A stretch of 64,000 nucleotides of DNA from Pseudomonadota bacterium. GTDB lineage: Bacteria > Pseudomonadota > Gammaproteobacteria > Burkholderiales > Ferrovaceae. The notes beneath the pieces were generated by a model, which saw only the letters and a program-made list of their open reading frames with translations, was not told the DNA's origin and searched no databases. The position numbers were made by a program, and so were the translations under genes. Positions 41,060-60,081 of this stretch are shown in pieces; the stretch's first letter is position 1; each line of letters opens with the position of its first letter. The stretch spans positions 1 through 64,000 of the forward strand of contig JAJZFH010000049.1 in the NCBI GenBank assembly GCA_021805445.1, given 5' to 3'.

Positions 41060-41176
41060 TTTGCGACCAGTTGCTCTTTAACATTGCCTTCCCCTTTTCA
41101 TCCATACGGGAGTGGGATAAACTAAAACCTTCCACAGAACAGATTCATGCGTGGGGTTCTTTTTTGGAGAGGTCCT

Positions 41177-41950
41177 ATGGTCAGTCTGAGTTCCAAAGCA
41201 TTGGGCGGACTAATGCTCGTCTTTGCCCTCGCCAGCGCAGCCTCACCTTCTGGCCCCAGAGTTCGGGATTGTCCTGACTGCCCGGAAATGACCCCGATTC
41301 CGGCGGGGAGTTTCATCCTCAGCGGGGGGGGGAAGGTGACCTTTTCCAAACCCTTCATGATGAGCACCACCCTGGTCACCCAGGGACAATGGCGCGCACT
41401 CATGCGGCGCAATCCCAGTGCCTTCCCTCGATGTGGCGACAACTGTCCGGTAGACCGTGTCAGTTGGGAAGATGCCCAGGTCTATATCCTGCGCATCAAC
41501 GCCAAGACCGGCCGGCATTATCGTTTGCCCTCCGAAAGCGAATGGGGATATGCCTGCCGAGCCGGCCTCACCAGCCCCTACTGCGGGGGCGACGCGCTCG
41601 ATCCCATCGCATGGTACGGGGAGAACAGCGCCAATCACCCTCATCCCGTGGCCACCAAGGCCCCCAATGCCTGGGGACTGTATGACATGAGCGGCAATCT
41701 TTGGGAGTGGACGGAAGATTGCTATCAGAACACCCGTCGGATCAATCAGGATGATCGGCGCAGTGTTCCGGATAATGGGGCGGCCTGGGAAGGCGATGCG
41801 GCTGAACAGGACGGGGAATGCCTGTCGCGGGTCGTGCGGGGGGGGTCATGGAACAATAATGCCCACGATCTCGCCTTGAGCAGGCGCACCGCCGATGACC
41901 CCACCGTACGCGTCAATACCATCGGATTCCGTCTGGTTCGAGATCAATGA
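41177..41950 (+). CDS. Exported FGE-fold (SUMF1-like) protein without catalytic cysteines
   Basis: This 257-aa protein has a signal peptide (about 1-21) and a formylglycine-generating-enzyme-like domain: EMTPIPAGSF, TTLVTQGQWRALM, HYRLPSESEWGYACRAG, GLYDMSGNLWEWTEDCY, RVVRGGSWNNNAHD and IGFRLV. True FGE has a Cys pair after the RGGSW motif; here that place reads NNNAHDLALSRR, so it is not a formylglycine maker. NirV, tied to copper nitrite reductase, is a comparable relative. The gene overlaps the SCO1 gene by 4 bases, pointing to oxidase or copper-protein biogenesis. GAGAGGT precedes the ATG. Confidence 0.8.
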   Translation: MVSLSSKALGGLMLVFALASAASPSGPRVRDCPDCPEMTPIPAGSFILSGGGKVTFSKPFMMSTTLVTQGQWRALMRRNPSAFPRCGDNCPVDRVSWEDAQVYILRINAKTGRHYRLPSESEWGYACRAGLTSPYCGGDALDPIAWYGENSANHPHPVATKAPNAWGLYDMSGNLWEWTEDCYQNTRRINQDDRRSVPDNGAAWEGDAAEQDGECLSRVVRGGSWNNNAHDLALSRRTADDPTVRVNTIGFRLVRDQ

Positions 41951-42582
41951 GGCCGGTGACCCGATCCTCCCCGTCCGTCGTTTTTCTGCTCTGCACGGCT
42001 CTCCTCATTCTGGGAGGCCTGGGGCTTTTCTTCTGGTACCAACCCGCGCCTCCTCGAGGGCTTGGGGATCGAACGCAGTGGCTGGCTCGAGGCCCTTCCC
42101 TACCGCCCTTCTCCTTGCCTTCCACCCAGGGCACCTTGACCCGGGAGTCCTTATCAGGGCACTGGACCTTTCTGCTCTTTGGCTATACCCACTGTCCCGA
42201 TGTCTGCCCCACCGACCTTGCCCTATTGGCCTCGGTATCCCGATCCTTCAAAAGAGGGGGCCACCCCGCCCCTCAGGTCATATTCGTTTCCGTGGACCCT
42301 GGGCGCGATTCCCTGCCCGTTCTGGGACGCTACCTCCCTGCCTTCGACCCCTCTTTCCTCGGGGCTCAGGCCACGACCACCCAACTCACCCCTTTCACCC
42401 AGAGTTTGGGGGTCTATGCCGTCCTTCATGACAATGAAAAGGATGGACGGGGAAACTATCCGGTGGATCACAGCAGCGCGATCTTCCTGTTCAACCCTTC
42501 GGGTCGCCTGCAGGCATCCTTTCAGATGCCTCAGGTTCCCGACCAGTTGTTCCATGATGCCCAGGCCATCCTGGCCAATTAA
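41947..42582 (+). CDS. SCO1/SenC-type copper chaperone
   Basis: This 211-aa protein has one N-terminal membrane anchor (residues 11-31) and a thioredoxin-like domain with the copper-binding pair C83/C87 (THCPDVCPTD) and the distal His in YPVDHSSAIF. SCO proteins deliver copper to the CuA or CuB site of oxidases. It is translationally coupled to the FGE-fold gene before it and lies across from the CcoG-containing operon. Confidence 0.93.
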   Translation: MRPVTRSSPSVVFLLCTALLILGGLGLFFWYQPAPPRGLGDRTQWLARGPSLPPFSLPSTQGTLTRESLSGHWTFLLFGYTHCPDVCPTDLALLASVSRSFKRGGHPAPQVIFVSVDPGRDSLPVLGRYLPAFDPSFLGAQATTTQLTPFTQSLGVYAVLHDNEKDGRGNYPVDHSSAIFLFNPSGRLQASFQMPQVPDQLFHDAQAILAN

Positions 42583-42934: not shown

Positions 42935-43459
42935 ATGCATTCGCTCTCAGACCTTCGCCGTTTAGTCAAATTTTTTATCGTTTCCGCCACCTCCCTCTTC
43001 ATCGGAGCCATGCACGGAATGTTGCAGGTGTTCCCCCCCATTCGAGCCTGGCTCGATTCCATTGGAAGCCCCTACGGGGGGCCAGGACACATGATCGACC
43101 CCTTGGCTCATGCCCACATGAACCTGGTGGGCGGTGTGGTCACCCTGGCCATGGGCACCACCTATTACCTGCTCCCGCGTTTGAGTGGCAAACGCATCTA
43201 CTCCCAGCGTCTGGTTCAGCATTCTTTCTGGTGGCTGTTCATTGGGGTCTACGGGTTTTATACCACCCAAATGGTCTTTGGCATCTGGGAGGGCTACCTG
43301 ATGCTCCATGACCGATCGGCCATGACTCATGCCCACCATTTCTACGGACCCATCGTGGCCGTGGCCGGCACCTGCATGGCCGTGGGGTTCATGGTCTACT
43401 TCTCGAATATCGTCCTGACCTTGATGGGTCCGGTGGAAAGTACCCGCGCCGAAGATTAA
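42935..43459 (+). CDS. Four-helix heme-copper oxidase subunit I-like protein (174 aa)
   Basis: This 174-aa protein has four hydrophobic segments (about 10-30, 62-82, 96-116, 137-160). The second carries AHAHMNLVGGVVTLAMGTTYYLLPR-type sequence (H59, H61), the pattern around the low-spin haem ligand in NorB/CcoN proteins. Other His residues are H27, H52, H96, H125, H132, H134 and H135. A full subunit I has at least twelve helices, so this is a stand-alone third, not an oxidase. It may bind one haem and serve as a quinol or electron-transfer module or an assembly factor. No frameshift remnant of the rest follows; the convergent lipoprotein gene starts 20 bases later. Confidence 0.65.
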   Translation: MHSLSDLRRLVKFFIVSATSLFIGAMHGMLQVFPPIRAWLDSIGSPYGGPGHMIDPLAHAHMNLVGGVVTLAMGTTYYLLPRLSGKRIYSQRLVQHSFWWLFIGVYGFYTTQMVFGIWEGYLMLHDRSAMTHAHHFYGPIVAVAGTCMAVGFMVYFSNIVLTLMGPVESTRAED

Positions 43460-43478: not shown

Positions 43479-43889
43479 CTAGTCGGAAACATGCAGCGGG
43501 AAAAACAAAATGCTGTCCCGCTGCGCCTCGTCCGCGCAGTTCAGGCGAACCTGCACCGTACGCCGTTCTCCTGGCTCGACCAGAGCAGCCCGCCGGTACA
43601 CCCCCACCCGTCCATCCTGAATAGCCTGTTTCCAGGGATCGCTCTGGGCCGTCCGAATATCCACCAGGCAGCGGGAACCGGGACGGTCATGGGCTCCGGT
43701 GACCATGACCAGAAATTCATTCATACCATCCCGAGGGGGGCTGGGGCGGGATTCCACGCGCACGGTCCAGTCATTCCAGGTTTGGGATGTCGTATCGGGC
43801 AGGGTCGATTCTGTTTTGCTGCAGGCCGCCAGGAAGAACAGCGGACCCCATCCGAGGAGGCTCCAAAAGAACTTATCAACGAACTTCAT
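43479..43889 (-). CDS. Lipoprotein, unknown (136 aa)
   Basis: This 136-aa protein has an N-terminal hydrophobic segment ending in the lipobox FLAAC (Cys near residue 21). A single beta-rich domain follows (DWTVRVESRPSPPRDGMNEFLVMVTGA ... VEPGERRTVQVRLNC), which looks Ig-like, comparable in size to FixH/YtkA folds. It overlaps the previous gene by 14 bases and is the last of the ten-gene operon. Family not recognised; a periplasmic assembly factor is plausible. Confidence 0.6.
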   Translation of the reverse strand: MKFVDKFFWSLLGWGPLFFLAACSKTESTLPDTTSQTWNDWTVRVESRPSPPRDGMNEFLVMVTGAHDRPGSRCLVDIRTAQSDPWKQAIQDGRVGVYRRAALVEPGERRTVQVRLNCADEAQRDSILFFPLHVSD

Positions 43890-44316
43890 CGGGAGTTTTA
43901 TGTGGTTGAGGATCGGTAGAATCCAGGGCATGTTGAGAATCCTCCTCCGGCCCCCCCGGATGAGCAATCCCATACATCCGGACCATGTAGTACACAAAGG
44001 TTCCAGCGCCCGCGAGGTACACCAGCGCCAACAAAAACCCCCAGTCCAGCCAGTGCTTCTGGTGTCCGGGACGAACACCCCAAAAGGGAAAGGCGAGCCC
44101 GATCGCGACCAGCAGGACCACCACGATCACGGCAAAAAACCAGTAAGGGACGGGTTTCTGGGATAAAGGAACGTTCTCTACCAATTCCCAGTCCTCCAGT
44201 CCCCGTTTGTCCTTGCGCTCTTCATCCGATGCATAGCCAAAGTGCTCTTTGTCTTTTTTCCCCCATTCCGGCTGGATCTCGCTCAGGGGTGGCTCGGGTT
44301 CACGGGTTTGATTCAT
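43876..44316 (-). CDS. Two-span membrane protein with a CcoP-N-like segment (146 aa)
   Basis: This 146-aa protein has a charged cytoplasmic N-terminus (1-55), spans at about 57-78 and 90-112, and a polar tail. The first span reads VPYWFFAVIVVVLLVAIGLAFPFWGVRP. Its end, FPFWGVRP, closely resembles FPLWGQRP in the CcoP-like protein at 51856-52476, so the two are probably related. It contains no haem motif. It starts 4 bases inside the ccoG stop. Function unknown. Confidence 0.6.
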   Translation of the reverse strand: MNQTREPEPPLSEIQPEWGKKDKEHFGYASDEERKDKRGLEDWELVENVPLSQKPVPYWFFAVIVVVLLVAIGLAFPFWGVRPGHQKHWLDWGFLLALVYLAGAGTFVYYMVRMYGIAHPGGPEEDSQHALDSTDPQPHKTPDEVR

Positions 44317-45608
44317 GGGTTTCCTCCCTTGGGGGCTTCTGAGAAATGCTGGATGGCAAACTGATCCTTCCAGTCCTCCTGAACGGCATGGGCCAGAATT
44401 CTGAAGGAATGGACGCCATGAGGCAGGGCCGGCGAGATGGACAGGATCGCGGACAGTCGTCCTGCCGCAGGAATCGTCAGTTGGGTCCGGGACAAATGAT
44501 ACTCTCCCGGCTTCAATCCCTGCACCGACAATTCCACCCTTTCAGGACGGTAACGTTTATTGGCGATTTCGATACGGTAATCCAGATCGTTCGCGGCATC
44601 TTGCACCTCGGCCCGGTAGGCTGCCAGATGTAGAGGTTCCCAGGTCCACAGTCCCCAGGAAAAAAAACTCAGTCCCAGGATCATGACGACCGTCATCCAC
44701 CCGGTGCGCGAGTTCAGGCCGATGGCATTGTTGCGAAAGTGAATACGCGCTTCCCGTTTGGTTTTACGTTCGCCAAATTCAAAACTCAGCAACCCCGGAT
44801 TCCCTTTCTTTGCCTGAAGACGGTTACAGGCATCGATACACTCGCCGCAATTGATGCAACTGTCATAGATATCCGTCTTGCGTGGATCGATGTCGATGAA
44901 GCAGGAGGTCACACAATAGTTACACTTTTCGCAGGCACTGGCACGGCTCGCGTCGTAACGCACATGAAGGGTTTCACGGGTCCGAAAACTGTGCTGCCAC
45001 ACCCGATAGACGCAGGCAAAACGGCACCAGAAGTGGCGAATCACGGCAATGTCCACCAGAATGATCAAAACAAAAACCGCATAAATCCAATGCAGGGAAC
45101 TGGCCAATGCAGGGTCCGAACGCCAGAGAAGAAAAGCCAGGATCGTCGAAGGGTCATAAAAATAGAACAGGGGAATCACCCCCAGGAACATGGAAGCCAA
45201 CAGGAAGGAAAGGCCCAGCAACACCCAGTTCCACACACGATTTTTGGCTGGAGCGATGACCGGTGCCTGACCATCCAGACTGACTTCGGCCCGTTTTCCC
45301 AATAGCAGATGGGTCATGTAATTGGCCCATTCGGAAAAGATGTTCTGCGGACAAACCCACCCGCAAAATACGGTGCCCGCCACGGAATAGAGCATCACCA
45401 GAAGGCTGAGCAGGGTGATCCACAGTCCGGCGATCAGAAAGAAATCGGCGAACCAGATCTGACGATCCAGCACGACCAATGCACCGGCGCGGGGATCGAT
45501 ACGAAACAGTCCCAAGGCTGGCACCAGAATGACCAACATCAGGGTGACTCCCTGCACCACGCGACGGTGCAGATGAAAGCGCGAGACCTGTATCAATGCC
45601 CCATTCAT
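44313..45608 (-). CDS. ccoG: Cytochrome oxidase assembly polyferredoxin CcoG
   Basis: This 431-aa protein has about five spans, FCGWVCPQN in the membrane part, [4Fe-4S] motifs CEKCNYCVTSCFIDIDP and CINCGECIDACNRLQ, and a C-terminal periplasmic Ig-like domain (IANKRYRPERVELSVQGLKPGEYHL), the full CcoG/RdxA architecture. CcoG reduces Cu(II) for cbb3 oxidase assembly. It is the eighth gene of the ten-gene minus operon, 22 bases after the polyamine-synthase-like gene. Confidence 0.92.
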   Translation of the reverse strand: MNGALIQVSRFHLHRRVVQGVTLMLVILVPALGLFRIDPRAGALVVLDRQIWFADFFLIAGLWITLLSLLVMLYSVAGTVFCGWVCPQNIFSEWANYMTHLLLGKRAEVSLDGQAPVIAPAKNRVWNWVLLGLSFLLASMFLGVIPLFYFYDPSTILAFLLWRSDPALASSLHWIYAVFVLIILVDIAVIRHFWCRFACVYRVWQHSFRTRETLHVRYDASRASACEKCNYCVTSCFIDIDPRKTDIYDSCINCGECIDACNRLQAKKGNPGLLSFEFGERKTKREARIHFRNNAIGLNSRTGWMTVVMILGLSFFSWGLWTWEPLHLAAYRAEVQDAANDLDYRIEIANKRYRPERVELSVQGLKPGEYHLSRTQLTIPAAGRLSAILSISPALPHGVHSFRILAHAVQEDWKDQFAIQHFSEAPKGGNP

Positions 45609-45630
45609 TTAGCCCTGCGCTCCCTGAAGT

Positions 45631-48252
45631 TTACTGAAAACTTTCATTCTTCGCCATTCCAGCTTCGCGGTCAAGAGGGGCTTCGCGCAGCAGGTTCAGA
45701 CGGGTTTTTTCTGCTTCGGAAAATTCATGGCGCTCTCTTTGTATTTTCCAGAGTGCCCTTTGTACCTCTACATGCCAAGGGAAACGAAGCGCCAGCTTGT
45801 CCAGCACGGCTTCCTTTTGGGCGTTGGGCAGCGGCGCACGCATCAACTGGGCCAATACCTCATCGGCCAGCGCATAACCCACCCAGCGATCCCGCGGATT
45901 GGCCTCGAACGCAAGACGAACCAGACGTTCGGCTTCGCCGTCACGCCCGGTCATACGATCCTGCCAACTTTGCACCAGATACTGGGTGGCATGCCAGGCA
46001 GCGGCAAATTCCGTGCTCCGGGATTCGGGCAGATTCAGATCCTGCGCTGCCTGCTCCAGGGAAGGCCTTTGATGCCACAGAGCCGCCAGCGTAACCTCCA
46101 GGGCGCCACCGGTATATTTCAGTCGGGGCAGGGAAAAATCGATGACCGGGGCCCATTCCTTCTGAACAGGTCCCGGCATATCAGGGATTCTGCCCCAGTA
46201 GCGTCCCAGCCAGGTCATCACCCCCTCCCCGCCCGTGGCTTCAAATCGTTGATCCGAACTGAGACGCTCCTGGCCCGCTTCCACCGTGGACCAGCCTGCC
46301 CAGGGTTGGCGAAACCCCACCAGAGCCAGATGCATGCCGTCCAGAAACAGATACGCATCGGGGAAAACCCGCCGGAAGGTTCTCAACTCCACCTGGAGAG
46401 CGGCAGGATCAAATTGGTTCAGGGCCAACCATTGGACGAATACCCCATGGGCCGACAAATGATCCCGCACCCGCCCAAACTGTTCCAGGGAAAGTAAAGC
46501 CCCCACCCCAGCCAGGTCAGGATGGTAGAGATCGCCCACGATGACGTCATAATGATTTTCCGTGGAACTCATGAAATGCCGCGCATCGTCCTGAATCAGT
46601 TCGGTTTCACTCAGGATCGGACCATCCACGGGCGTAAAGTAACGACGTGCCGCTTCAATGGACCCCTGCGACAATTCCACGGCTTCCCGTCGTACCTTGG
46701 GATACGCCGAACTCCCGGCCAGCGACAGTCCGGTGCCCAGTCCCAGGAACAATACCCGTTGGGGATGACCCTGCAGCAACAGGGCCAGACGACCCTGGTT
46801 CCGCTGCACGAAAGCCGCCGTCGGATCCGAGGAGGCATCGTGACGTTGCAGGTCGGTGAGCAGGATTCTCTGCCCATCGGGCTGCTCTACCACCTGAGTC
46901 ATGGCCACCGCATCTTCATAGCGATAAATATCATGACTTCCGGCCAGCGTTTCCGGCAGCAATTTCTGTGCCGGCGGGAAGGTCCAGAGTCCGGCCCCCA
47001 ACCCCACAAACCCTACCATCAGCCCCCCTTGTACCAACGTCCAGGGACGGGTCCAGGTCAAACTGGCCCCCAGGATCAGAAGAGCGCTCCAGACCAGGGT
47101 TCCGGTGGTCCCCAGCCAGGGTAACCAGACAAAGCCCGTCATCAGAGCACCCAAAGCGCCCCCCAGAGAATTGACACCGTACAGTTTCACCCCGGTACGG
47201 AGACTGCCCTGCGCTTCACTCAGAAGAGGGAGCCACAGTCCCAGGACAAAAGTCACCGGAAAAGTCAGTACGGTCAGGATCAGTCCTTGCAGCAGAAGCG
47301 CCTGGGTCAGCGTTTGACCCAGCGGGTGCTCGACCCAGGCTGCCACGACGGGCAACAGGGCCAGTCCTGCCAGAACGCCGCCGGCAGCCACCCATGGAAA
47401 CGCGCTGCGGAATCGGCGCAGCGTGGACTGCCAACGCGTCGCCACCAGACTGCCCAACCCGATTCCCACCAGAAAGGACGCCAGAATCAAAGCCAGGACA
47501 TACTCGGTACGCAGAAACAATAGTCCGAAGAGACGAGTCCAGGCCACTTCAAGAGAAAGGCTGGCCATCCCCAGAATCCCATAAAAGAGCAGGAGCATCG
47601 AATCGGTTTTTTCTGCTTTTTCAGTGGGCGCGGTCGATACCTCGTCCTGAACCAGAGAACGGGTTCCCTCGCAACGCTCCAGCATCCACCAGCCGACTCC
47701 CAGCGCTGCGCCCAGCAGTGCGATCCCACGCAGGGCGTGGACCCAACCGAACATCGGCAGCAGAATCAGAGGAAGCAAAGCGCCCAACACGGCACCCAAC
47801 GTATTGACCCCGTACAGCAGTCCCAACCGTCCGGATACCTGTTGGCCGAGCGACAGAACCAGAGGGAACCCGGCACCCAGGGCCACGGCGGGCAGGGTCA
47901 GCAGGAGGAAAGACACCAAGGCCAATCCCAAATGCCAGTTCGAAGCCCCTTGATGAGAAAATCCCGCCCAGAGCGCATGTTCCTCGAGGGGGGCCAGAAA
48001 AGGCAACAGAGCCGAGAAGAGGGCCACACTCACTTCCAGAAGGGCAAGCAGGCGGAGAGGTCGACGAAAATTGCAGCCGGACAGTGCCAGTGCCCCCAAC
48101 CCCAGTCCCGCCATGAAGGCGGCCACCGTAATAACCACTCCAAAGACACTCAGACCAAACTGGAGGGTCACCATGCGGACCCACAGTACCTCGTAGGCCA
48201 GCCCCACCAGGCCCGACAAACCATACAGGGCCGGAATCAGGAAGGGGTTCAA
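45631..48252 (-). CDS. MFS-like membrane protein fused to a spermidine-synthase-like domain
   Basis: This 873-aa protein has about fourteen hydrophobic segments in the first 440 residues (SGLVGLAYEVLWVRM start, typical of this fusion family), then a Rossmann methyltransferase-like domain at about 480-680. That domain has the motifs VLFLGLGTGLSLAG, VELSQGSIEAARRYF and YDVIVGDLYHPDLAGVGALLS, and a helical C-terminal tail follows. Fused proteins of this type are annotated as spermidine synthases, but activity is mostly untested. Its place in a tight oxidase-biogenesis-like operon (4-base overlap with the previous gene) suggests another role, perhaps transport or modification in cytochrome maturation. 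Confidence 0.8.
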   Translation of the reverse strand: MNPFLIPALYGLSGLVGLAYEVLWVRMVTLQFGLSVFGVVITVAAFMAGLGLGALALSGCNFRRPLRLLALLEVSVALFSALLPFLAPLEEHALWAGFSHQGASNWHLGLALVSFLLLTLPAVALGAGFPLVLSLGQQVSGRLGLLYGVNTLGAVLGALLPLILLPMFGWVHALRGIALLGAALGVGWWMLERCEGTRSLVQDEVSTAPTEKAEKTDSMLLLFYGILGMASLSLEVAWTRLFGLLFLRTEYVLALILASFLVGIGLGSLVATRWQSTLRRFRSAFPWVAAGGVLAGLALLPVVAAWVEHPLGQTLTQALLLQGLILTVLTFPVTFVLGLWLPLLSEAQGSLRTGVKLYGVNSLGGALGALMTGFVWLPWLGTTGTLVWSALLILGASLTWTRPWTLVQGGLMVGFVGLGAGLWTFPPAQKLLPETLAGSHDIYRYEDAVAMTQVVEQPDGQRILLTDLQRHDASSDPTAAFVQRNQGRLALLLQGHPQRVLFLGLGTGLSLAGSSAYPKVRREAVELSQGSIEAARRYFTPVDGPILSETELIQDDARHFMSSTENHYDVIVGDLYHPDLAGVGALLSLEQFGRVRDHLSAHGVFVQWLALNQFDPAALQVELRTFRRVFPDAYLFLDGMHLALVGFRQPWAGWSTVEAGQERLSSDQRFEATGGEGVMTWLGRYWGRIPDMPGPVQKEWAPVIDFSLPRLKYTGGALEVTLAALWHQRPSLEQAAQDLNLPESRSTEFAAAWHATQYLVQSWQDRMTGRDGEAERLVRLAFEANPRDRWVGYALADEVLAQLMRAPLPNAQKEAVLDKLALRFPWHVEVQRALWKIQRERHEFSEAEKTRLNLLREAPLDREAGMAKNESFQ

Positions 48253-48641
48253 AAGGGGAAGAACCAGGCCACCCCCACAATGGCATGGACCAGGGCCAGG
48301 GTCATGGTCAATCCCGCCATGATCATGTGAGGGACGAACCAGGGCTTACCATAGATGCCCATGCCGATGCCCAGGCCTCCCGTCACCAGAACCATCAGGA
48401 TGAGCGGGACCCCCATGACAAACATGATGATTTTTTTCTTGTGGTCGTCAACGGGCGTCACCCCATCGTCCTTGTCTCCCTGCTGCTTCTGGAATGCCTC
48501 CATCATCTGAACGGCATTGGGGTTTTGCGGGGCAGCCGGGGCGGCGAATGCCGGCCGAAAGAGCGCCAGTCCCAGGATGAAGACCATACCGGTCAAAAGA
48601 TGCCATCCCCCACGGGATCCCGGAAAACCAAAGGATTTCAT
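48249..48641 (-). CDS. Exported/membrane protein, unknown (130 aa)
   Basis: This 130-aa protein has a signal-like N-terminal hydrophobic segment (about 14-33, ending AFAAP), a short polar linker with KQQGDKDDGVTPVDDHKKK, and two membrane spans (about 70-90 and 103-127, ending VGVAWFFPF). The start overlaps the preceding gene stop by 4 bases. Family not recognised. His residues in the last helices (PHMIMAG, LVHAIVG) could be ligands. Confidence 0.6.
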   Translation of the reverse strand: MKSFGFPGSRGGWHLLTGMVFILGLALFRPAFAAPAAPQNPNAVQMMEAFQKQQGDKDDGVTPVDDHKKKIIMFVMGVPLILMVLVTGGLGIGMGIYGKPWFVPHMIMAGLTMTLALVHAIVGVAWFFPF

Positions 48642-48880
48642 GGATGATCCTCTGGAGAAGACGGGGGATTGGGCGGTGCTGGTTTCTTTTTGAAGGAAAA
48701 ATACCACGCCAGCACGCCCATCAGGATGAAAGGGGCAAATATGCCAATCAGCAAAAAGAGGAAAATATTCCACGGCGTATCTACGGTCACATGCAAATAG
48801 CGATAACTATCCACGGCATGGGCGTCAGAAATCCATAGACACTGCGCCAGCACGGCTGGGATACGAAGTTGACGCAACAT
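48638..48880 (-). CDS. Small membrane protein, unknown (80 aa)
   Basis: This 80-aa protein has a weak signal-like N-terminus (LRIPAVLAQCLWISDAHAVD), then a strongly hydrophobic span at about 35-58 (NIFLFLLIGIFAPFILMGVLAWYF) and a Lys/Pro-rich tail. Start at ATG 48880, 10 bases after the FGE-fold gene; the in-frame Met at 48919 would overlap that gene. Unknown function. Confidence 0.55.
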   Translation of the reverse strand: MLRQLRIPAVLAQCLWISDAHAVDSYRYLHVTVDTPWNIFLFLLIGIFAPFILMGVLAWYFSFKKKPAPPNPPSSPEDHP

Positions 48881-48890
48881 GGGTCGATAC

Positions 48891-49949
48891 TCAATGAGAG
48901 GGAGGAAGGGAACTGGCACAGCGAAACCCGTAAAAGTCGGAAGTCATGTTGGCAAAGGCATTGTCGCGGTGAAAAAGGGAGGTGGAAAAGGGATCACTTT
49001 TCCAGGATCCGCCCCGCAGCACCTTGTAACTCCGTTTGATCAGTTTTTGATCGGAAATCCCCAGATTGCGATCCTGGGAGGATTCCTGAACCGCCACCTT
49101 GCCTTGAAACACGATGGTGGGGGCTATGGACCCGGGGTAGGGCGCAAAATCACTGTCGGTCCACTCGTCCACGTTACCCGATAAATCAAAAACACCGTAG
49201 GAACTGGCCCCTTGGGGATAATCGGTCACAGGGGAAGACGAATTCCGGTTGTAATACGTATTCAATCTGGTCGGGTCCATGATGTTTCCCCAGGGCCAGC
49301 GGCGTCCATCCGTGCCCCGCCCGGCTTTTTCAAACTCGGCTTCCGTGGGCAAGCGCTTATGTGCCCATTGGGCATAAGCCTTGGCGTCATACCACGTGAC
49401 CAGGGTAACCGGGAGCAACAGAGCCCCCTGCGGAATCCTTCCCTCTTTCCAATTGAGCGGAGGGCGGTGTCCGGTAGCCGCCACGAAGCGGGCATACTGT
49501 GCGTTGGTGACGGGATATTTATCGATGGCGTAAGCCGGAAGATCCACTTTATGTTCCGGCTTGTCGGGAGGATCGGCACGATCGAGATTGGTTCCCATCT
49601 GAAACGGGCCTGCGGGAATGGTCACCATCGTGTTCAGGTTTTCCCATTGTTCGCGAGACAACAAGCGATCAGCCTCCTCCACCGTGTAGCCGCCTTTGAC
49701 TTCTCCGGCCTCGTGCTGTTCATGGATTTGAATATCCTCACCCGCCGCGCGAATATGGCTGTCCGACTCCTTGATGTTATAGGACACCAGATTGCGCATA
49801 TCCTCCATGCGCCCTTGTCCCAGTTTGATGACATGGAGCGAACTGCCAATCATGACGATGCCGATACACGTCACCAGTGTGGCTGACAGGATCTTTTTGC
49901 GTTTGAGCCGCTCTTCCGGGGTAGACGGCAGTTTGGGGGAAAGTGCCAC
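48891..49949 (-). CDS. Membrane-anchored FGE-fold protein without catalytic cysteines
   Basis: This 352-aa protein has one N-terminal membrane span (about 20-40), a linker, and an FGE/SUMF1 domain from about residue 108: MVTIPAGPFQMGTNLD, IDKYPVTNAQYARFVAATGHRPP, KRLPTEAEFEKAGRGTDGRRWPWG, FDLSGNVDEWTDSD, YKVLRGGSWKSDP and FYGFRCA. The Cys pair of true formylglycine-generating enzymes after RGGSW is absent (KSDPFSTSLFHRD). It is a paralogue of the plus-strand protein at 41177-41950. It probably acts as a periplasmic partner or structural factor for a respiratory metalloprotein. Confidence 0.8.
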   Translation of the reverse strand: MALSPKLPSTPEERLKRKKILSATLVTCIGIVMIGSSLHVIKLGQGRMEDMRNLVSYNIKESDSHIRAAGEDIQIHEQHEAGEVKGGYTVEEADRLLSREQWENLNTMVTIPAGPFQMGTNLDRADPPDKPEHKVDLPAYAIDKYPVTNAQYARFVAATGHRPPLNWKEGRIPQGALLLPVTLVTWYDAKAYAQWAHKRLPTEAEFEKAGRGTDGRRWPWGNIMDPTRLNTYYNRNSSSPVTDYPQGASSYGVFDLSGNVDEWTDSDFAPYPGSIAPTIVFQGKVAVQESSQDRNLGISDQKLIKRSYKVLRGGSWKSDPFSTSLFHRDNAFANMTSDFYGFRCASSLPPSH

Positions 49950-49952
49950 CGT

Positions 49953-50462
49953 TTACTCCCTGTTTTTTCGCGCGCGTTGACGTTGGCGTTGACGTTCTTC
50001 CCGTGCCAAACGCTCCTGATAGATCATTTCGATGGTCTTGCGCCCATAGTGACGCTTGATCACGGTTTCTCCAAGCACGGCCCCCACCATACCCGTTTCC
50101 ATGGCCAGAATGATAAAAAAACCCCACCACCCCAGGGGAATCAGATGACCATACTCCGGCACCCCGGAGATTTCTGCCACGTTGAAATAACTGATGCCCC
50201 GGACGATCAGGGGGGTGGCATAGCACAGCCATTTACTCCCCTTGCCAAAAATCAGGGCCAGAAAAAAGTTCGCAACCAAGGGAACGAGAAAAACATCCAG
50301 CATCCAGCGAAAAGAAAAATAATCCAACGCATTGGTAAAGACTTCAATGGTGACGCCCAGCAGGCGATCCCCAAAGTGATTGATGGCGGTAGCGACGCCC
50401 AATCCAATCAGCGCTCTCCCCCACTTACCCGTATCTTTTTCCTGTGGGACTACTTCCTTCAT
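49953..50462 (-). CDS. Multi-span membrane protein, unknown (169 aa)
   Basis: This 169-aa protein has about four hydrophobic segments (20-40, 52-72, 80-95, 108-130) and a highly basic, Arg/Gln-rich C-terminus (QRQRQRARKNRE). It overlaps the cytochrome c stop by 4 bases. Family not recognised; it is specific to this operon context. Confidence 0.55.
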   Translation of the reverse strand: MKEVVPQEKDTGKWGRALIGLGVATAINHFGDRLLGVTIEVFTNALDYFSFRWMLDVFLVPLVANFFLALIFGKGSKWLCYATPLIVRGISYFNVAEISGVPEYGHLIPLGWWGFFIILAMETGMVGAVLGETVIKRHYGRKTIEMIYQERLAREERQRQRQRARKNRE

Positions 50463-50953
50463 TTTTTGTAGTCATCCTTCCCCGTGAGTTTTTCATATTC
50501 GCTCTTTTTGGTTTCATCCAGATACCAATCCTTGACATGCAGACTGGCCAGATAATGGGCCAGCGTTCTTCTTTCCTGCTCGGGAAGCGTGGCAAAAGAA
50601 GGCATCCGGTATTCGGGCTTGAGGCGACTGGGTAACATGGCCTGAGGATGGGGAGACGATAGATACTGGTAAAGCCATGCCTCGCTCCGTAAATCCCCCA
50701 TTCCATCCAGTGAAGGGGAAGGAACCGACTGCATGATATTACGCACTGACCAAAGCGAATGGCACTGACGACAGTCGTTCTGGCGGATCAGATCGGACCC
50801 TTCCCGCGCCAATTCGGGGGTGGCCGTCGTATAAAAAGGCAAACCACGATCACCGTTCTGATCACCCTTTTCGTGATGGATGATATTTTGTGCGACACCC
50901 GCCACCGCCAGCGCCCCAATGAGGCCCAGCACGACCCATTCACCCCGTTTCAT
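50459..50953 (-). CDS. Membrane-anchored monohaem cytochrome c
   Basis: This 164-aa protein has an N-terminal anchor (6-22), then a cytochrome c domain with the haem motif CRQCH at residues 61-65 and a Met ligand in YRMPSFATLPE. The domain, LIRQNDCRQCHSLWSVRNIMQSVPSPSLDGMGDLR...LYQYLSSP, resembles the FixO/FixP single-haem type. It overlaps the CcoS-like gene by 4 bases. It may provide the cytochrome c domain that the CcoP-like protein of the oxidase block lacks. Confidence 0.85.
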   Translation of the reverse strand: MKRGEWVVLGLIGALAVAGVAQNIIHHEKGDQNGDRGLPFYTTATPELAREGSDLIRQNDCRQCHSLWSVRNIMQSVPSPSLDGMGDLRSEAWLYQYLSSPHPQAMLPSRLKPEYRMPSFATLPEQERRTLAHYLASLHVKDWYLDETKKSEYEKLTGKDDYKK

Positions 50954-51231
50954 GTCGTCTTGGTTGTCCTGACCGCCGCTTGTTCTGCCAGAACTTCCGC
51001 TCGTCGGGCTTCCTGTTTTGCCAGGACTTCGCGACTTTTGGCATATTCTTCCGGACTCATCTTGTCCTTGTCGCTTTCTTTGAATACCAGATACTTGATA
51101 TCTTCATCGAACTGCTCGTTTTTGGAACCCCAGCGTATCCCATAGATACTCACGGCAATGATGAGTCCCCCAGCAATGAGCCACAGGTAGATGGTCCACC
51201 CATCGGGTAAAGTATCGAGGTAATTGCCCAT
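50950..51231 (-). CDS. CcoS/FixS-like small membrane protein with extended tail
   Basis: This 93-aa protein has one span at 13-30 and the motif WGSKNEQFDED at 34-44, closely like the WA-xx-GQFDDL motif that ends the span in CcoS (FixS), an assembly factor of cbb3 oxidases. Unlike normal CcoS (about 50-60 aa) it carries about 50 extra, highly charged residues (SPEEYAKSREVLAKQEARRAEVLAEQ). ATG 51231 is preceded by CAGGAGTC and a TAGAAT hexamer (51265-51260, minus), so it probably starts the ten-gene operon. Confidence 0.65.
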   Translation of the reverse strand: MGNYLDTLPDGWTIYLWLIAGGLIIAVSIYGIRWGSKNEQFDEDIKYLVFKESDKDKMSPEEYAKSREVLAKQEARRAEVLAEQAAVRTTKTT

Positions 51232-51336: not shown

Positions 51337-51564
51337 TCAAAACAGATAACCGGTCAATAGTTGGGTAGCGCCAAACCCCGTGGCCACCACCACGCCCAGG
51401 ATGATGGCGATGAACATCAAGCGCTCCCCGATACGCATCTTGGTGGGGGCATATTGCCCTTTGAGCAGGGAATAGATGATTCCAGAAAAAACCGCTATGC
51501 CGATCATCAGAAATACAAAAATATAGACGCTGAAACGTTGACTCCTCATTCCTTCGATACTCAT
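51337..51564 (-). CDS. Small membrane protein, unknown (75 aa)
   Basis: This 75-aa protein has two spans (about 11-31 and 50-71); the N-terminus is MSIEGMRSQRFSVYIFVFLM. No ribosome site is clear, and an in-frame ATG at 51618 is an alternative. It lies immediately downstream of the terminator that closes the oxidase block, so it is expressed by read-through or from an unseen promoter. Family not recognised. Confidence 0.45.
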   Translation of the reverse strand: MSIEGMRSQRFSVYIFVFLMIGIAVFSGIIYSLLKGQYAPTKMRIGERLMFIAIILGVVVATGFGATQLLTGYLF

Positions 51565-51640
51565 ATCGATTTTTCCAGAAGTCGTTGCGGCCACGAGATG
51601 CGAGATTTCAGTGATCATGAGATAAAGTTCGAATGGGGTC

Positions 51641-51673
51641 AAAAAAAAGTGCCATACCGTCAGGTATGGCACT
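51641..51673 (-). terminator. Strong rho-independent terminator of the ACIII-oxidase gene block
   Basis: AGTGCCATACC / GGTATGGCACT form a perfect 11-bp stem (51648-51658 with 51663-51673, 4-nt loop), followed on the minus strand by eight T (51648-51641). It lies 46 bases after the 36-aa peptide stop. Confidence 0.95.
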
Positions 51674-51718: not shown

Positions 51719-51829
51719 TTATTTCTTCTTGTCGAAATTATCCACAAAGAAACTATAGAGAAACGGGCAGACAAAGGCAATACTGATGGGCAATGCAAGG
51801 GCCAAAGGGCCGTAATCCAGATCGATCAT
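51719..51829 (-). CDS. 36-aa single-span membrane peptide, last gene of the oxidase block
   Basis: A 36-codon ORF with GGAGATGA just before ATG 51829 encodes a peptide beginning MIDLDYGPLA, with a hydrophobic span at 8-28 (LALALPISIAFVCPFLYSFF) and tail DNFDKKK. It follows the CcoP-like gene by 26 bases and precedes the operon terminator. Small single-helix subunits (CcoQ, CcoM) accompany cbb3 oxidases; this may be the equivalent here. Sequence identity with those families is not evident. Confidence 0.7.
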   Translation of the reverse strand: MIDLDYGPLALALPISIAFVCPFLYSFFVDNFDKKK

Positions 51830-51855: not shown

Positions 51856-52476
51856 TCAGTGATCATGCTTGGGTTGCCACGTGGTGGGGGGCAGCCGCTT
51901 GATCATGGTAAATACGGATAAAAAGAAGTAACTCAGATAAAAAACATCGATGGTATATCCCTTGTCCCACCAGGGTTGCTGACGGATACGGGAGCCGTCC
52001 GGACGATAATTCCCTTCAAAGTTGGCCGTGACCACCTGATCTCCCACCACTTCAAAATCATGCATGTGCGCGCCCTTGGCTTCCAGCGCCTTGATTTGCG
52101 GAGCGATCATGCGCAGATCATCCATGGTCAAAGGATGCCGTTCCAACAAGGCATCATTCGGCGTCCCCTTGTTCATGTCCACGATTTTGGCCATGGCTTC
52201 CTTGTCATCCTTGGCTGCCAAAACTTCAGGCTTGTCCATGGAATTGACGTAGGGTTCATACAAGGCCGCTGTCGGACGTTGGCCCCAGAGCGGGAAGGTA
52301 ATGGCAAACGCCGTAATCACCGTCAAACCAACCAGCCACACCACCGGTGCAGGAACCGGATTGTTGTCTTCGTGTACCCCACCCAGATTGTCGTCTTCCC
52401 ACAATTTTTCATCTTTACGGACCTTTTCTTCATCAGAAAGGGTGCGCAGGGGCGAATCAAAGGACCAATTACTCAT
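51856..52476 (-). CDS. CcoP N-terminal-like membrane protein without haem domains (206 aa)
   Basis: This 206-aa protein has residues LWEDDNLGGVHEDNNPVPAP (25-44) followed by a span at 42-62. These match the start of CcoP/FixP, whose N-terminus has the same acidic GIxExDNPLP motif before its single helix. Normal CcoP continues with two CxxCH cytochrome c domains; here there is none. A soluble linker (70-170) and a second span at 174-193 replace them. GGAGGT precedes ATG 52476. It takes the CcoP position right after ccoO and probably anchors a separate cytochrome. Confidence 0.65.
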   Translation of the reverse strand: MSNWSFDSPLRTLSDEEKVRKDEKLWEDDNLGGVHEDNNPVPAPVVWLVGLTVITAFAITFPLWGQRPTAALYEPYVNSMDKPEVLAAKDDKEAMAKIVDMNKGTPNDALLERHPLTMDDLRMIAPQIKALEAKGAHMHDFEVVGDQVVTANFEGNYRPDGSRIRQQPWWDKGYTIDVFYLSYFFLSVFTMIKRLPPTTWQPKHDH

Positions 52477-52546
52477 AGAGACCTCCACTTATTATCGACT
52501 GTCCCATCCCTCTGAAAGGAAAGGAACAGTCAGTTTGGTATCAGAT

Positions 52547-53503
52547 TTACTTGAGCGACAGAACGAAGTCGATCAACGCACGGGCATCAGAATTGCTGGC
52601 ATACATGGGAACTTCAGGCGGTGTGACCCGCTTTCCATCCACATACTCGTTATACTCTGCACGCCACTTGTCAAAATCGATCTTCTGGCCCTTGTCGTCG
52701 ATCGGACCCCAAAGATAGTCAAAACGGGGCATGATGGAATGTGGCTGGACCAGACGCGGATTGAAGAAGTGCAACATCATCCATTCACGCGACGAATTGC
52801 GTGATCCCACATGAAGAATATCCGGTGCCTTGCGGTCAGAACCAAAGGCAGTGGGGGATTCCCCGTTGAAGTCACCCAGCATGGGGGGCGCACCAAACAC
52901 TTGCCAATCCTGGGTTTCTTCTGGCAAGAGGGTGTGACACCACCAGCAGCCTTCACGCACGAAAATGGCTTTCCCATAAGAAGCATGGTAGGTATTTTCA
53001 TCCCCAGCGGCTTTCATGACCTCTTCAGGATTCCAGCCCTTGGTGGCCGAGGCATTTTCAATATAAAACTGCTTGGAGCCATCGCCTTGAGGCTCGGAAC
53101 TGAGCAGGAATACTGCCCCCTGAGACTTGCTGGCTTCACCGATCCGACCTTTGTCCCGACTCAACTGCTCCACGATATTCCCGAGGTTATCGGGGTGGTC
53201 CACGCCATTGGGAAGGGGTGTCCCCGCTGGATAAACATAGGCGACCGTGGATGCCATGGGTTGACCCGTTTTCGGATCTGTTTTCAGGGTCACCCGCACC
53301 GGCCGATGCTCTCCCGTCAGGAAGGGATCGGCCAGACTGAACCCCGACTCATGACCGGCCCAAAGTTGCTTGTCCAGGGCCACCTCTGTGGCATTGACAT
53401 TGCGCAAGTCGAAACTGGGCATAAACAAGGTGATCGTCATCGAACCACCCAGGGCAAGACCGAAAAACCGCGCTCCGATCTTGTACTCTCTAAAATTGAC
53501 CAT
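52547..53503 (-). CDS. ccoO: cbb3-like oxidase monohaem subunit CcoO, with a large insertion
   Basis: This 318-aa protein has an N-terminal span (about 10-28), a haem c motif CWWCH at 186-190 in the FixO context YGKAIFVREGCWWCHT, then GSRNSSREWMMLHFFNPRLVQPHSIMPRFDYLW, the CcoO Met-ligand region. In ordinary CcoO the haem motif comes about 40 residues after the helix; here it comes about 155 after, so there is an extra domain of more than 100 residues (about 40-175). It overlaps no gene; ccoN ends 36 bases upstream. GGAGGAG precedes the ATG. Confidence 0.88.
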   Translation of the reverse strand: MVNFREYKIGARFFGLALGGSMTITLFMPSFDLRNVNATEVALDKQLWAGHESGFSLADPFLTGEHRPVRVTLKTDPKTGQPMASTVAYVYPAGTPLPNGVDHPDNLGNIVEQLSRDKGRIGEASKSQGAVFLLSSEPQGDGSKQFYIENASATKGWNPEEVMKAAGDENTYHASYGKAIFVREGCWWCHTLLPEETQDWQVFGAPPMLGDFNGESPTAFGSDRKAPDILHVGSRNSSREWMMLHFFNPRLVQPHSIMPRFDYLWGPIDDKGQKIDFDKWRAEYNEYVDGKRVTPPEVPMYASNSDARALIDFVLSLK

Positions 53504-53539: not shown

Positions 53540-54946
53540 TTAACGTTCGTAGGCCAGTTCGTGGGCCATGCGTCCCTCTGGAATCACTGTCCCAGCGCGT
53601 GCGGTCATCCACATGTTATAGAGCCAGAAGCAGTTTCCTGTAAACACCAGAGAACCACCGATCCAGCGGGCAATCATGTAGGGATGCTCTGCCATCACCA
53701 CGTCGATGTACGGGACTTCGTAGATCTTTCCGGCCCCCTGAATCAGCCCGGCAATGGTCATGGACACCCAGTAGGTCGTAAACCCGATCAACAGAAACCA
53801 GAAATGCAGATTGCCCAGGGTCAGAGAGTACAACTTGCGCTTCATCAGAGTTTGCAAACCCAGATAGACAGCGGCGGCTTCCAGGAAGGTCGAAAAGCCC
53901 AGGAGAGCCAAGTGTGCGTGCGCCACGATCCAGCCCGTCCCATGAATGTACCAGTTGATGGCGCGGGTTTGCTGGAAGCCCCCTTGCATGTTCAGCGGAA
54001 TGGCCATCAGACAGCCCGTCACCGTGAAGCGGATCTCCAGGTTTTCCACGAACATGTTCCATTTTCCTTGCATGGTCAACAGGATGTTGGACACGAAGGC
54101 AACGGCCGGCACCAGAATCAGAACCCCTTCCACCGAGGCGAAGGATTTGAGCCATTCAGGCAAAGGTGCGGACATCAGGTGATGGGCAGCAGGAGTGGAG
54201 TAGAACACTACGACAGACCAGAAGTGCAGGTGACCAATCCGGTGCGAATAGAGCGGATTGCCAGTGACCTTGGGAATGGTGTAGTAGGCAATGGCCGCAG
54301 CTACCGGGGTGATCCACAGACCCAGCACATTGTGCGCAAACCACCAGGTCAGGTAGGCTTCGGTCAATCCGGTCAGATGGAACCACTCGGGCAGGTTACC
54401 CACGATGAACACGATGCTGACCATGAACACAGCGGAAGCGAAGAACCAGTTGGTGGTGTAGATCCCCTGCGTCTTGCGGTGGATGACGGTCATCCAGACA
54501 TTGATCCCCAAGGGAATGGTCATGAAGGTGGCAATGTACAGATCGATGAACCAGGGGAAGTCAGAATACTCCCGCCCCGAGGTCATCCCGGACCACAACA
54601 AGGTCAATCCCAGGGACAGTCCGACATTCCAGAGAAACGCATTCCAGATGCCCAACTTTTCCGACCACAACTTGGTGTTACCCAAGGCCGGGGTCATGTA
54701 CATCATGGCCATGGCAAACGCCATGGAGATCCAGCCAAAAATCACGGCGTGGACGTGCACTTGACGCATGTGACCAAAGGAAACGAACTCCAGACCCGTG
54801 ACAAAATCAGGAAATGCCAACTTGGATGCGTTGAAGGCACCCAACCCGGTTCCAATCACAAACCAGACAATCGCGGAGAAACCGAAATAAACCGCAGCCG
54901 ATCCCTCCGGAATATCTTCGCTACGCGCAAATAGGTACTTGAACAT
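53540..54946 (-). CDS. ccoN: cbb3-like heme-copper oxidase catalytic subunit CcoN
   Basis: This 468-aa protein has about twelve spans and the six key His of heme-copper oxidases: low-spin haem b H64/H66 (VHVHAVIF) and H345, high-spin haem H343 (VAHAHLALLG), CuB ligands H205 (WFAHNVLG), H255 and H256 (STPAAHH), with Y249 close to the CuB pair. The pattern with no Glu on helix VI fits the cbb3 (C) family. It reduces O2 to water and pumps protons. AGGGGGGG precedes the ATG. Confidence 0.92.
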   Translation of the reverse strand: MFKYLFARSEDIPEGSAAVYFGFSAIVWFVIGTGLGAFNASKLAFPDFVTGLEFVSFGHMRQVHVHAVIFGWISMAFAMAMMYMTPALGNTKLWSEKLGIWNAFLWNVGLSLGLTLLWSGMTSGREYSDFPWFIDLYIATFMTIPLGINVWMTVIHRKTQGIYTTNWFFASAVFMVSIVFIVGNLPEWFHLTGLTEAYLTWWFAHNVLGLWITPVAAAIAYYTIPKVTGNPLYSHRIGHLHFWSVVVFYSTPAAHHLMSAPLPEWLKSFASVEGVLILVPAVAFVSNILLTMQGKWNMFVENLEIRFTVTGCLMAIPLNMQGGFQQTRAINWYIHGTGWIVAHAHLALLGFSTFLEAAAVYLGLQTLMKRKLYSLTLGNLHFWFLLIGFTTYWVSMTIAGLIQGAGKIYEVPYIDVVMAEHPYMIARWIGGSLVFTGNCFWLYNMWMTARAGTVIPEGRMAHELAYER

Positions 54947-55167: not shown

Positions 55168-55443
55168 TCAAGCGGCGTTTTCAATGGCATCATGCCGCTG
55201 AAAGGCGATGGCAAGAATACCGATGTAAGCGAAACCGAAAACGAGCATACACCAGTCGATGAACCCCGTGAAGGTATGAGGATCATACGCCTGACCGTTC
55301 CACCCGCCCCAGTTGTTGAAGTCACCGCGCCCCAGGAAACACATCAAGGCTGCACCGAACACGCTGCCATTGCCCATACCCGTCAGCATTCCGCCGACGA
55401 TCATGCACCAAAAGCCGCGCGACATGATGGATTTTTTTTGCAT
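55168..55443 (-). CDS. Two-span membrane protein, unknown (91 aa), first gene of the oxidase block
   Basis: This 91-aa protein has two spans (about 8-30 and 60-80). The loop between them is polar and Trp/Asn-rich (GDFNNWGGWNGQAYDPHTFTG). A strong GGGGGGAGGA ribosome site precedes ATG 55443. It follows a promoter with a 125-base structured leader. Family not recognised; a small oxidase or ACIII-associated subunit is likely. Confidence 0.6.
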   Translation of the reverse strand: MQKKSIMSRGFWCMIVGGMLTGMGNGSVFGAALMCFLGRGDFNNWGGWNGQAYDPHTFTGFIDWCMLVFGFAYIGILAIAFQRHDAIENAA

Positions 55444-55480
55444 TCCTCCCCCCTCTCTTTCGTTTTCACTGAAATTAATG

Positions 55481-55520
55481 ATATTCAGCAACTTACAAAA
55501 CTTTTTATTTTGCTGATTAT
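55481..55520. repeat. Inverted repeat in the leader of the oxidase block
   Basis: ATATTCAGCAA (55481-55491) and TTGCTGATTAT (55510-55520) pair at 10 of 11 positions around an 18-base AT-rich spacer. In the minus-strand transcript it would form a hairpin about 40 bases before the 91-aa gene. No T run follows, so it is a leader structure or protein site rather than a terminator. Confidence 0.5.
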
Positions 55521-55630: not shown

Positions 55631-56635
55631 TTACTTGATCACCTGCGTACTTTTCAACCGATTGCGTACGATCAGGAAAGCCGTGACCATCACCACCACC
55701 GTCACCCCGATGTCAAAACTGCCGGTCATCGGAAAATGCGGGGTGGGATAAGTGCCGGAAATCCAGGTATAACGTTCCACCCAGCTGCCTAAAACGATGT
55801 CACAGGCAATGAAAAAAATCACTCGGGGATTATGCCGACTGAAGGGAAAAACCAGGGTCACGAAGGGGATGATGAACTTCATCACGAAGAACATCCAGAA
55901 CAACGGGCTGTAGTCACCATACTGCATCTGGTAGATCCGTCCCGTTTCTTCCGAAATGTTGCCGTACCATATGATCAGGTACTGCCCAAAGAAGGTATAG
56001 ATCCATAAAATGGTGAAGCCCAGCATCATCTGCGCCAGATAATTGAAAATCTGCAGGCGAATCTTCTGCCGGATCACCCCGGTGTTCTGGAGGATGGTGA
56101 GCAGAATCACGAAGGAAGCCAGGAACATGCCCGAGACGCTGACGATGTAATTCACGGAAAACATGGAACTTTCCCAATGGGGCAAGAGAGTCATCTCGAA
56201 ATCCCACGCCACCATGGTGCAATACAGGACATGAATGAAGGGAATGGCGGCAGCGAGCGCCTTGAAGCGGGACAGATTCTCCGGAGAATCTTCAGAGGTG
56301 CGCTGCAGTCGGACAAACGCTCCATAAGCCAGTCCCACGATGATGATTCCGGCAATCTCACGCACCCGCAAAAACTTCAGGTTGTTCCACTTGGGCAGTT
56401 GCTCGAAGGTGCCCGCCCAGGGAAAAGTCATCTCCCCCCCAAACAGCAGAATGAGCAGAAGTATCACGGCGAGCGGATACAGGGCAAAGAAAGCAACAGA
56501 AATGTGGCGAACTTCATAGCGCCACTTGGCATTGACCAGATGCAGCAGGCAAGGCAGGGCAACCCCTGCCAGACACAGGTGCAACACGATCAGAAAATCC
56601 ACGGTCAGTACTGACCAACTTGCAAATGGAATCAC
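55631..56635 (-). CDS. actF: Alternative complex III subunit ActF
   Basis: This 334-aa ten-span NrfD-like protein belongs to ActF (MIPFASWSVLTVDFLIVLHL; conserved RVREIAGIIIVGLAYGAFVRL, WERFTWISG-type end WVERYTWISGTYPTPHFP). It is one of two membrane quinol-module subunits of ACIII. The start is GTG 56635 with AAGGAG upstream. It is the last act gene; 187 bases separate it from the oxidase block. Confidence 0.92.
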   Translation of the reverse strand: MIPFASWSVLTVDFLIVLHLCLAGVALPCLLHLVNAKWRYEVRHISVAFFALYPLAVILLLILLFGGEMTFPWAGTFEQLPKWNNLKFLRVREIAGIIIVGLAYGAFVRLQRTSEDSPENLSRFKALAAAIPFIHVLYCTMVAWDFEMTLLPHWESSMFSVNYIVSVSGMFLASFVILLTILQNTGVIRQKIRLQIFNYLAQMMLGFTILWIYTFFGQYLIIWYGNISEETGRIYQMQYGDYSPLFWMFFVMKFIIPFVTLVFPFSRHNPRVIFFIACDIVLGSWVERYTWISGTYPTPHFPMTGSFDIGVTVVVMVTAFLIVRNRLKSTQVIK

Positions 56636-56651
56636 GGCGCGGCTCCTTGGG

Positions 56652-59187: not shown

Positions 59188-59231
59188 GGTTTTTTCCCTG
59201 AATGGTGGTAATCATGAAAGCGCGGTTCAAC

Positions 59232-60080: not shown

Positions 60081-60081
60081 G

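Follow-up and report, generated by a model that had tools for sequence, protein, structure and literature searches.

Several described systems resemble the subject of this study, a set of ten genes (positions 43479-51231, minus strand) that lies behind a divergent ccoNO gene pair in a 64,000-nt stretch of DNA (the window) from a 1.97 Mb genome of the Ferrovaceae. Like our set, the ccoGHIS biogenesis operon of canonical cbb3 oxidases adjoins ccoNO, and its CcoG and CcoS have putative counterparts in a CcoG-like and a FixS-like protein of the set; moreover, the succession of CcoG and two small anchored proteins in the window mimics ccoG-ccoH. In contrast to ccoGHIS, however, no FixH family protein was detected and no CcoI gene is adjacent, the CcoG is far below the equivalog cut-off, and the set contains in addition an FGE-fold protein, a fused MFS/spermidine-synthase-like protein, a cytochrome and four to five unnamed membrane proteins. 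In Campylobacter jejuni, loss of CcoS or CcoI abolishes cbb3 activity and loss of CcoG or Sco lowers it, and the neighbouring genes ccoX, ccoY and ccoZ are also necessary or important for full activity (PMC8267372). By analogy, ccoXYZ may be considered the closest precedent for unknown neighbours that serve a cbb3 oxidase, although their place is between the ccoP and ccoH genes of a canonical oxidase and the likeness drawn here is one of setting. MFS proteins on which haem-copper oxidases depend, CcoA among them (PMC10588857), likewise tie an MFS-like membrane protein to oxidase maturation, whereas the protein encoded here is fused to a Rossmann-type domain.

The oxidase type and part of the gene order are already known. 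The 'distal' cbb3 subtree of Ducluzeau et al. 2008 is used in PMC8788666, PMC7029218 and PMC10734462; there, distal CcoNO is reported from Sideroxydans, other Gallionellaceae and Zetaproteobacteria (for the last see PMC7029218) alongside an ordinary 'proximal' type of different subunit composition (PMC8788666), and the passages concerned do not define the accessory block. A region whose gene order is conserved between Mariprofundus PV-1 and Candidatus Tenderia electrophaga (PMC5371394, Fig. S2) shares cyc1 (a diheme c4), a polyferredoxin and hypothetical proteins with the locus described here, but it concerns two organisms in the context of extracellular electron transfer and is not an oxidase-specific gene set. 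Our literature search found no published description of the accessory block as a defined unit, of its near-obligate tie to CcoN, of its relocation as a unit or of a haem-less CcoP relative, and a search joining spermidine synthase, cbb3 and formylglycine returned no match. A conserved redox gene cluster in Zetaproteobacteria was reportedly noted by Field et al. in 2015.

Results

A ten-gene set behind a divergent ccoNO

The ten genes probably make up most of an operon dedicated to the assembly and the accessory subunits of a 'distal' type cbb3 oxidase that lacks CcoP. All ten open reading frames (ORFs) are open and co-directional, and the tight spacing of -14 to +22 bases reported in the initial annotation was confirmed: -4 for S93-Cyt164, Cyt164-M169, M80-M130, M130-SpdMFS and CcoG-P146, +3 for M169-FGE, +10 for FGE-M80, +22 for SpdMFS-CcoG and -14 for P146-Lip136. 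On the minus strand, below an alternative complex III (ACIII) cluster, the order is X107, CcoN, CcoO, P210, Q36, M111 and then the ten-gene set, as follows (TM, transmembrane; AF2, AlphaFold2).

55168..55491, minus: X107, small membrane protein ahead of ccoN (in 58 of 59 long loci, defined below; TGMGNGSVFGA motif)
53540..54946, minus: CcoN, divergent ('distal' type) (COX1 1.7e-75; alignment to 3mk7)
52547..53503, minus: CcoO, divergent, one haem c (FixO 1.6e-16)
51856..52488, minus: P210, candidate subunit resembling a haem-less CcoP N-terminus (FixP_N profile; no CXXCH)
51719..51829, minus: Q36, 36-residue one-TM protein in a CcoQ-like position
51648..51673, minus: terminator-like hairpin at the boundary between oxidase and accessory genes (11-bp stem and T run)
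51337..51618, minus: M111, small membrane protein, probable first accessory gene (ORF open from 51672)
50950..51231, minus: S93, CcoS/FixS-like one-TM protein (FixS profile)
50459..50953, minus: Cyt164, membrane-anchored monohaem cytochrome c (one CXXCH, one TM, Pfam Cytochrom_C)
49953..50462, minus: M169, helical membrane protein without a named family (AF2 model)
48891..49949, minus: FGE, one-TM anchored protein of the FGE-sulfatase fold without the FGE cysteine pair (PF03781)
48638..48880, minus: M80, small one-TM protein (sub-threshold DUF3149; conserved DSYR..HV motif)
48249..48641, minus: M130, small membrane protein whose last TM helix carries H105 and H119, both invariant (alignment; sub-threshold PF01292)
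45631..48252, minus: SpdMFS, membrane domain fused to a spermidine-synthase-like domain, TTG start (NF037959)
44313..45608, minus: CcoG-like polyferredoxin (TIGR02745 below cut-off; Fer4 motifs)
43876..44316, minus: P146, two-TM protein, distant FixP_N-like relative of P210 (hhalign)
43479..43889, minus: Lip136, predicted lipoprotein with a beta-sandwich domain (invariant Cys23; AF2 model; CrdA match)

The accessory unit probably begins one gene earlier than the ten-gene set, at M111, past the strong terminator hairpin. The annotated GTG start of M111 overlaps the hairpin (51673-51648), and ATG 51618 is preferred because the upstream GTG lies inside it. A terminator-like site was present at the Q36-M111 junction in 45 of 74 loci; the same scan found none at twelve other junctions, where overlapping genes leave little room.

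Conservation of the gene order

A CcoN scan of public genomes yielded 80 loci, with CcoN 81-100% identical, from Ferrovum, Gallionella, Sideroxydans, Candidatus Nitrotoga, Chromatiales and other metagenome-assembled genomes of Gammaproteobacteria. Profiles of every module gene were run over these loci, and the counts below refer to the 59 'long' loci with at least 9.9 kb downstream. CcoO, P210, Q36 and M111 were present in all 59, and S93-Cyt164-M169-FGE-M80-M130-SpdMFS followed the divergent ccoNO in constant order in 56; CcoG was found in 54 and P146 in 53. Median identity to the window protein was 36-61% for most module proteins, and several fell to 27-45% with the order unchanged. This persistence of order under divergence exceeds chance. 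The arrangement is shared by Ferrovum, Gallionellaceae, Nitrotoga, Chromatiales, other Gammaproteobacteria and three families outside the class, which are probably Zetaproteobacteria; in two loci from outside the class (L170 and L173) the order is unbroken through to Lip136.

Three loci (L030, L032 and L034) lack the block behind ccoNO and carry it elsewhere in the genome. The relocated block comprises M169-FGE-M80-M130-SpdMFS-CcoG-P146-Lip136 in the same order, complete in the two records of greater length and truncated where the contig ends in the third, and S93 and Cyt164 still stand beside ccoNO. The eight genes thus move as a unit, and S93 and Cyt164 are tied more closely to the oxidase.

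A further locus (L162, G095:C157), whose CcoN is 58% identical, carries a shorter, rearranged set of S93, two Cyt164-like genes and an M80-like gene, possibly an intermediate form of the module.

Co-occurrence with divergent CcoN

The initial annotation had proposed that co-occurrence of the set with divergent ccoNO across several genera would support a system, and that homologues found mostly away from oxidases would speak against one. The co-occurrence proved very strong, with the same order in several genera and families, and M169 and the FGE orthologues are not scattered away from oxidases. The M169 profile served as marker because paralogues do not interfere with it in most genomes, and the genomes were counted by hand from the result tables. 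In the class sample (n=369), 27 genomes had both M169 and divergent CcoN, three M169 only, four divergent CcoN only and 335 neither. In all three M169-only genomes, the cluster is interrupted by contig ends (L163-L165); of the four CcoN-only genomes, three come from one family and keep the full cluster minus M169 (L156, L157, L174), and the fourth has a split CcoN. About 200 genomes of the class sample that carry ordinary ccoN alone (about 28-34% identical) gave no M169 match. The phylum sample (n=399) gave 39 genomes with both, four with M169 only, three with CcoN only and 353 with neither. Here the M169-only genomes are drafts of 57-90% completeness (G539, G617, G671, G677), and two of the CcoN-only cases end at contig ends (L190, L191); the third, G601 (L192), extends 1.5 kb past Q36 and has no M111. 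Apart from G601 and those four drafts, nearly all discordant genomes in the two samples reflect contig ends, relocation or loss of M169 alone. Fisher p values were 2e-33 (class) and 7e-46 (phylum), computed on genomes that are related and so not independent.

In 61 relatives, FGE orthologues, which score about 440 bits or more, accompany divergent CcoN in all cases but one (G007, a draft of 73% completeness); without divergent CcoN, the best FGE-fold match reached 145 bits. Of M169 and FGE, only M169 has separate paralogues; those that stand apart from the oxidase (L158, L159, L160, L169) have no other module gene nearby.

The divergent oxidase

The window CcoN is 99-100% identical to Ferrovum records, for example F. 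myxofaciens P3G. Its residues 20-452 align to Pseudomonas stutzeri 3mk7 (213 bits), on which alignment all residue assignments are based; all haem and CuB histidines and Tyr251 are kept, identifying the protein, at the level of its sequence, as a true cbb3-type subunit I. The scores against TIGR00780 (224.3 bits; cut-off 583.15) for CcoN and against TIGR00781 (62.8 bits; cut-off 200.65) for CcoO place both outside the canonical cbb3 models. Assignment to the 'distal' type is inferred from the taxa and the missing CcoP, which agree with PMC8788666 and PMC7029218. Glu323 of 3mk7, conserved in canonical CcoN, is replaced by Gln321 in the window protein and by Gln across the other aligned sequences of the divergent family.

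No recognisable CcoP is encoded in the genome, since a profile search of it found no FixP_N-bearing protein; a search for CcoH (FixH, PF05751) was likewise negative, with Caulobacter as positive control in both cases. P210, whose family matches FixP_N in 21 of 23 members (best 1.1e-4), contains no CXXCH haem motif. Profile searches with P210 and Cyt164 matched no relevant solved structure. For Ferrovum JA12, the genome paper noted a missing subunit III and suggested a co-localised cytochrome c as substitute (PMC4725956). In the window, Cyt164 (Pfam Cytochrom_C 3.1e-7), with one TM and a single CXXCH that is invariant across the family, is a candidate for this cytochrome. The supply of a cytochrome subunit by the set, raised earlier as a possibility, is plausible because no FixP_N-bearing CcoP was detected and Cyt164 stays next to ccoNO where the eight other genes have moved.

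The accessory proteins

S93 matches FixS in all 23 family members (best 1.7e-4); the window copy itself scores 0.02 and 15.1 bits, below the cut-off of 23.1. The CcoG-like protein matches TIGR02745 at 2.1e-39 (135.7 bits; cut-off 316.7) and keeps the Fer4 and FCGW.CPQ motifs. The initial description of the 146-residue P146 as CcoP-N-like can be retained in an indirect form: its profile is similar to that of P210 (hhalign E 2.2e-6, probability 89), which is the FixP_N-like one.

M169, P146 and Lip136 matched no named family in Pfam and NCBIfam, M80 gave only the sub-threshold DUF3149 match, and M130 only a sub-threshold match to cytochrome b561 (PF01292; 1.5e-4, 22.0 bits, cut-off 30.1; three of 25 members), which does not place it in that family. 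The AF2 model of M169 is helical (pLDDT, predicted local distance difference test, 92.3), and a fold search against the PDB returned nothing at E<=0.001. In M130, the family alignment shows H105 and H119 to be invariant, fourteen residues apart in one TM helix, which is suggestive of a haem b site. A 14-residue spacing of histidines is that used for the two haems b in cytochrome b.

The anchored FGE protein has the FGE-sulfatase fold (PF03781; 8.8e-54, 183 bits, cut-off 23.3), with EgtB, PvdO and GldK/PorK among its fold relatives. No Cys occurs between RGGS and HR in any of 69 aligned sequences, a region after the GGS motif in which we take the catalytic pair of formylglycine-generating enzyme to be expected, and a role as such an enzyme was rejected because this pair is absent. 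SpdMFS matches the fused MFS/spermidine synthase family NF037959 (75.5 bits; cut-off 40) and keeps G.GTG in 57 of 58 sequences. The active-site motif of spermidine synthase is D-x-x-D-P; in its place all 58 sequences have a DxYHPD-type motif, D-x-Y/F-H-P-D.

Lip136 has an invariant Cys23, and the best PDB match of its model (pLDDT 79.6) is the Helicobacter pylori copper protein CrdA (E 2.6e-4). An identity as FixH found no Pfam support in 10 members and was rejected.

Flanking genes

Three convergent genes adjoin the block at 41.1-43.5 kb.

42935..43459, plus: CcoN-like mini protein of 174 residues (COX1 5e-11 over profile positions 344-409)
41947..42582, plus: SCO1/SenC copper chaperone (PF02630 3.9e-31)
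41147..41950, plus: second FGE-fold protein (PF03781 6.9e-38)

The 174-residue CcoN-like protein also stands beside Lip136 in L156, L170, L174 and L183, and several other loci have a CcoN-like protein or SCO close to Lip136 or P146. On the other side, a trio of diheme cytochrome (probably Cyc1), monohaem cytochrome and 200-residue CcoN-like protein precedes the oxidase genes in nearly every locus from outside Ferrovum that extends far enough; the Ferrovum trio lies on the plus strand at about 64.0-65.9 kb, beyond the ACIII genes. The module is flanked by a 174-residue and a 200-residue CcoN-like protein (the latter at about 65.3-65.9 kb; L166:5289-5888), both covering only the last third of COX1. 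The gene after this upstream group of cytochromes and CcoN-like protein encodes a thioredoxin-like protein (L166:5892-6410).

Directly upstream of the divergent ccoNO, the ACIII cluster occupies 55631-62931 on the minus strand (ActA to ActF, with ActB split in two). From 62.9 kb downwards it encodes a pentahaem cytochrome, molybdopterin-type, ferredoxin-type and NrfD-type proteins, ActD (1.6e-26), a monohaem cytochrome and an ActF-like protein. Of all loci examined, only those of Ferrovum-type genomes and their close relatives showed ACIII next to ccoNO. A small Tat-type, cysteine-rich protein is encoded between the ACIII and divergent cytochrome genes at 63224-63529; it is possibly HiPIP-like, with no match to the Pfam HiPIP family.

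Discussion

That the block is dedicated to the divergent oxidase we regard as highly likely; the tie is well supported because the marker M169 is nearly absent where divergent CcoN is absent, as are, among close relatives, the FGE orthologues. That most of the block acts in assembly is reasonably probable. The dedicated part of the earlier proposal of a dedicated assembly or maturation system has accordingly been borne out, while its assembly part draws only on CcoG, the FixS-like S93, the nearby SCO1 and the CrdA-like fold of Lip136.

In the mechanism that we envisage, CcoN, CcoO, P210 and Q36 would form the catalytic core, with P210 keeping the membrane part of CcoP without its haem. Cyt164 would replace the haem domains of CcoP and pass electrons to CcoO, which extends the proposal made for JA12 (PMC4725956). 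S93, CcoG, SCO1 (41.9 kb) and the CrdA-fold Lip136 may deliver haem or copper to the haem b3-CuB site; in other bacteria, CcoG acts as a cupric reductase. The anchored FGE-fold protein, SpdMFS, M169, M80, M130 and P146 would be assembly or stabilising factors specific to this oxidase type, and the accessory genes, being placed behind a terminator, would be made in lower amount than the structural subunits. A bolder version, which we consider a long shot, casts the eight genes from M169 to Lip136 as a new maturation machine for haem-copper oxidases, in which the anchored FGE protein and the Rossmann-type domain of SpdMFS would carry out a covalent modification or cofactor insertion needed only by CcoP-less cbb3, and M130 would add a haem b site outside CcoN.

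Several observations weigh against an assembly operon. Eight of the ten proteins could just as well be supernumerary subunits, a reading with which deep synteny agrees no less. One family does without M169, and several genomes have a paralogue of it that is not near the oxidase. The count for Lip136 is 21 of the 59 long loci, which is a lower bound because many loci end there; its match to CrdA is moderate (root-mean-square deviation 5.1) in a class of common Ig-like folds, and it has no conserved His, Met56 alone being invariant. Finally, no CcoI gene adjoins the block or belongs to the operon; the genome encodes three E1-E2 P-type ATPases elsewhere.

The strongest alternative, which we nevertheless judge unlikely, is that most products of the block are supernumerary subunits that stay permanently in the oxidase, or in a supercomplex with cytochrome donors, namely Cyt164, M80, M130, M169, P146, the FGE domain and Lip136. 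Several members are indeed small conserved TM proteins, FGE-fold proteins such as GldK/PorK are structural, and the spacing of H105 and H119 in M130 resembles that of the two-haem-b helix of cytochrome b, a parallel drawn from general knowledge. CcoH, once termed an assembly factor, remains in the complex (PMC8267372, PMC7876108). Set against this, CcoG and FixS-like proteins are assembly factors in other bacteria, the terminator that separates the block from ccoNO in most loci suggests lower expression, and the block can leave ccoNO as a unit.

Far less probable still is a role in some other periplasmic or envelope process, such as the uptake of electrons from extracellular donors, linked to the oxidase in lithotrophs by co-regulation alone. 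The carriers include iron and nitrite oxidisers, and in Tenderia the expression of a polyferredoxin and three hypothetical proteins, all from the region syntenous with Mariprofundus, varied as the electrode potential was changed (PMC5371394). The association, however, tracks the type of CcoN and not the energy metabolism, and genomes of the same families without divergent CcoN also lack the marker. The set is not tied to iron oxidation in general: nitrite-oxidising Nitrotoga has all of it, and Sideroxydans ES-1 raises its distal cbb3 on thiosulfate (PMC8788666). Operons can persist by descent, but a chance or purely ancestral grouping without functional coherence is hardly credible for an order kept at such protein divergence across at least two classes, with the last eight genes still together after relocation.

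Taken together, our data favour the reading of the set as an assembly and accessory-subunit operon of the distal oxidase. This oxidase is found in bacteria that oxidise iron or nitrite, and Sideroxydans ES-1 expresses its distal ccoNO at a high level (PMC8788666). For an enzyme that works without CcoP, the fixed set of partner genes supplies candidates for what is missing, namely a third subunit and a small number of assembly factors. Transfer of ccoNO alone to a laboratory host would probably fail, and the gene set is a better marker of the oxidase type than similarity of ccoN alone.

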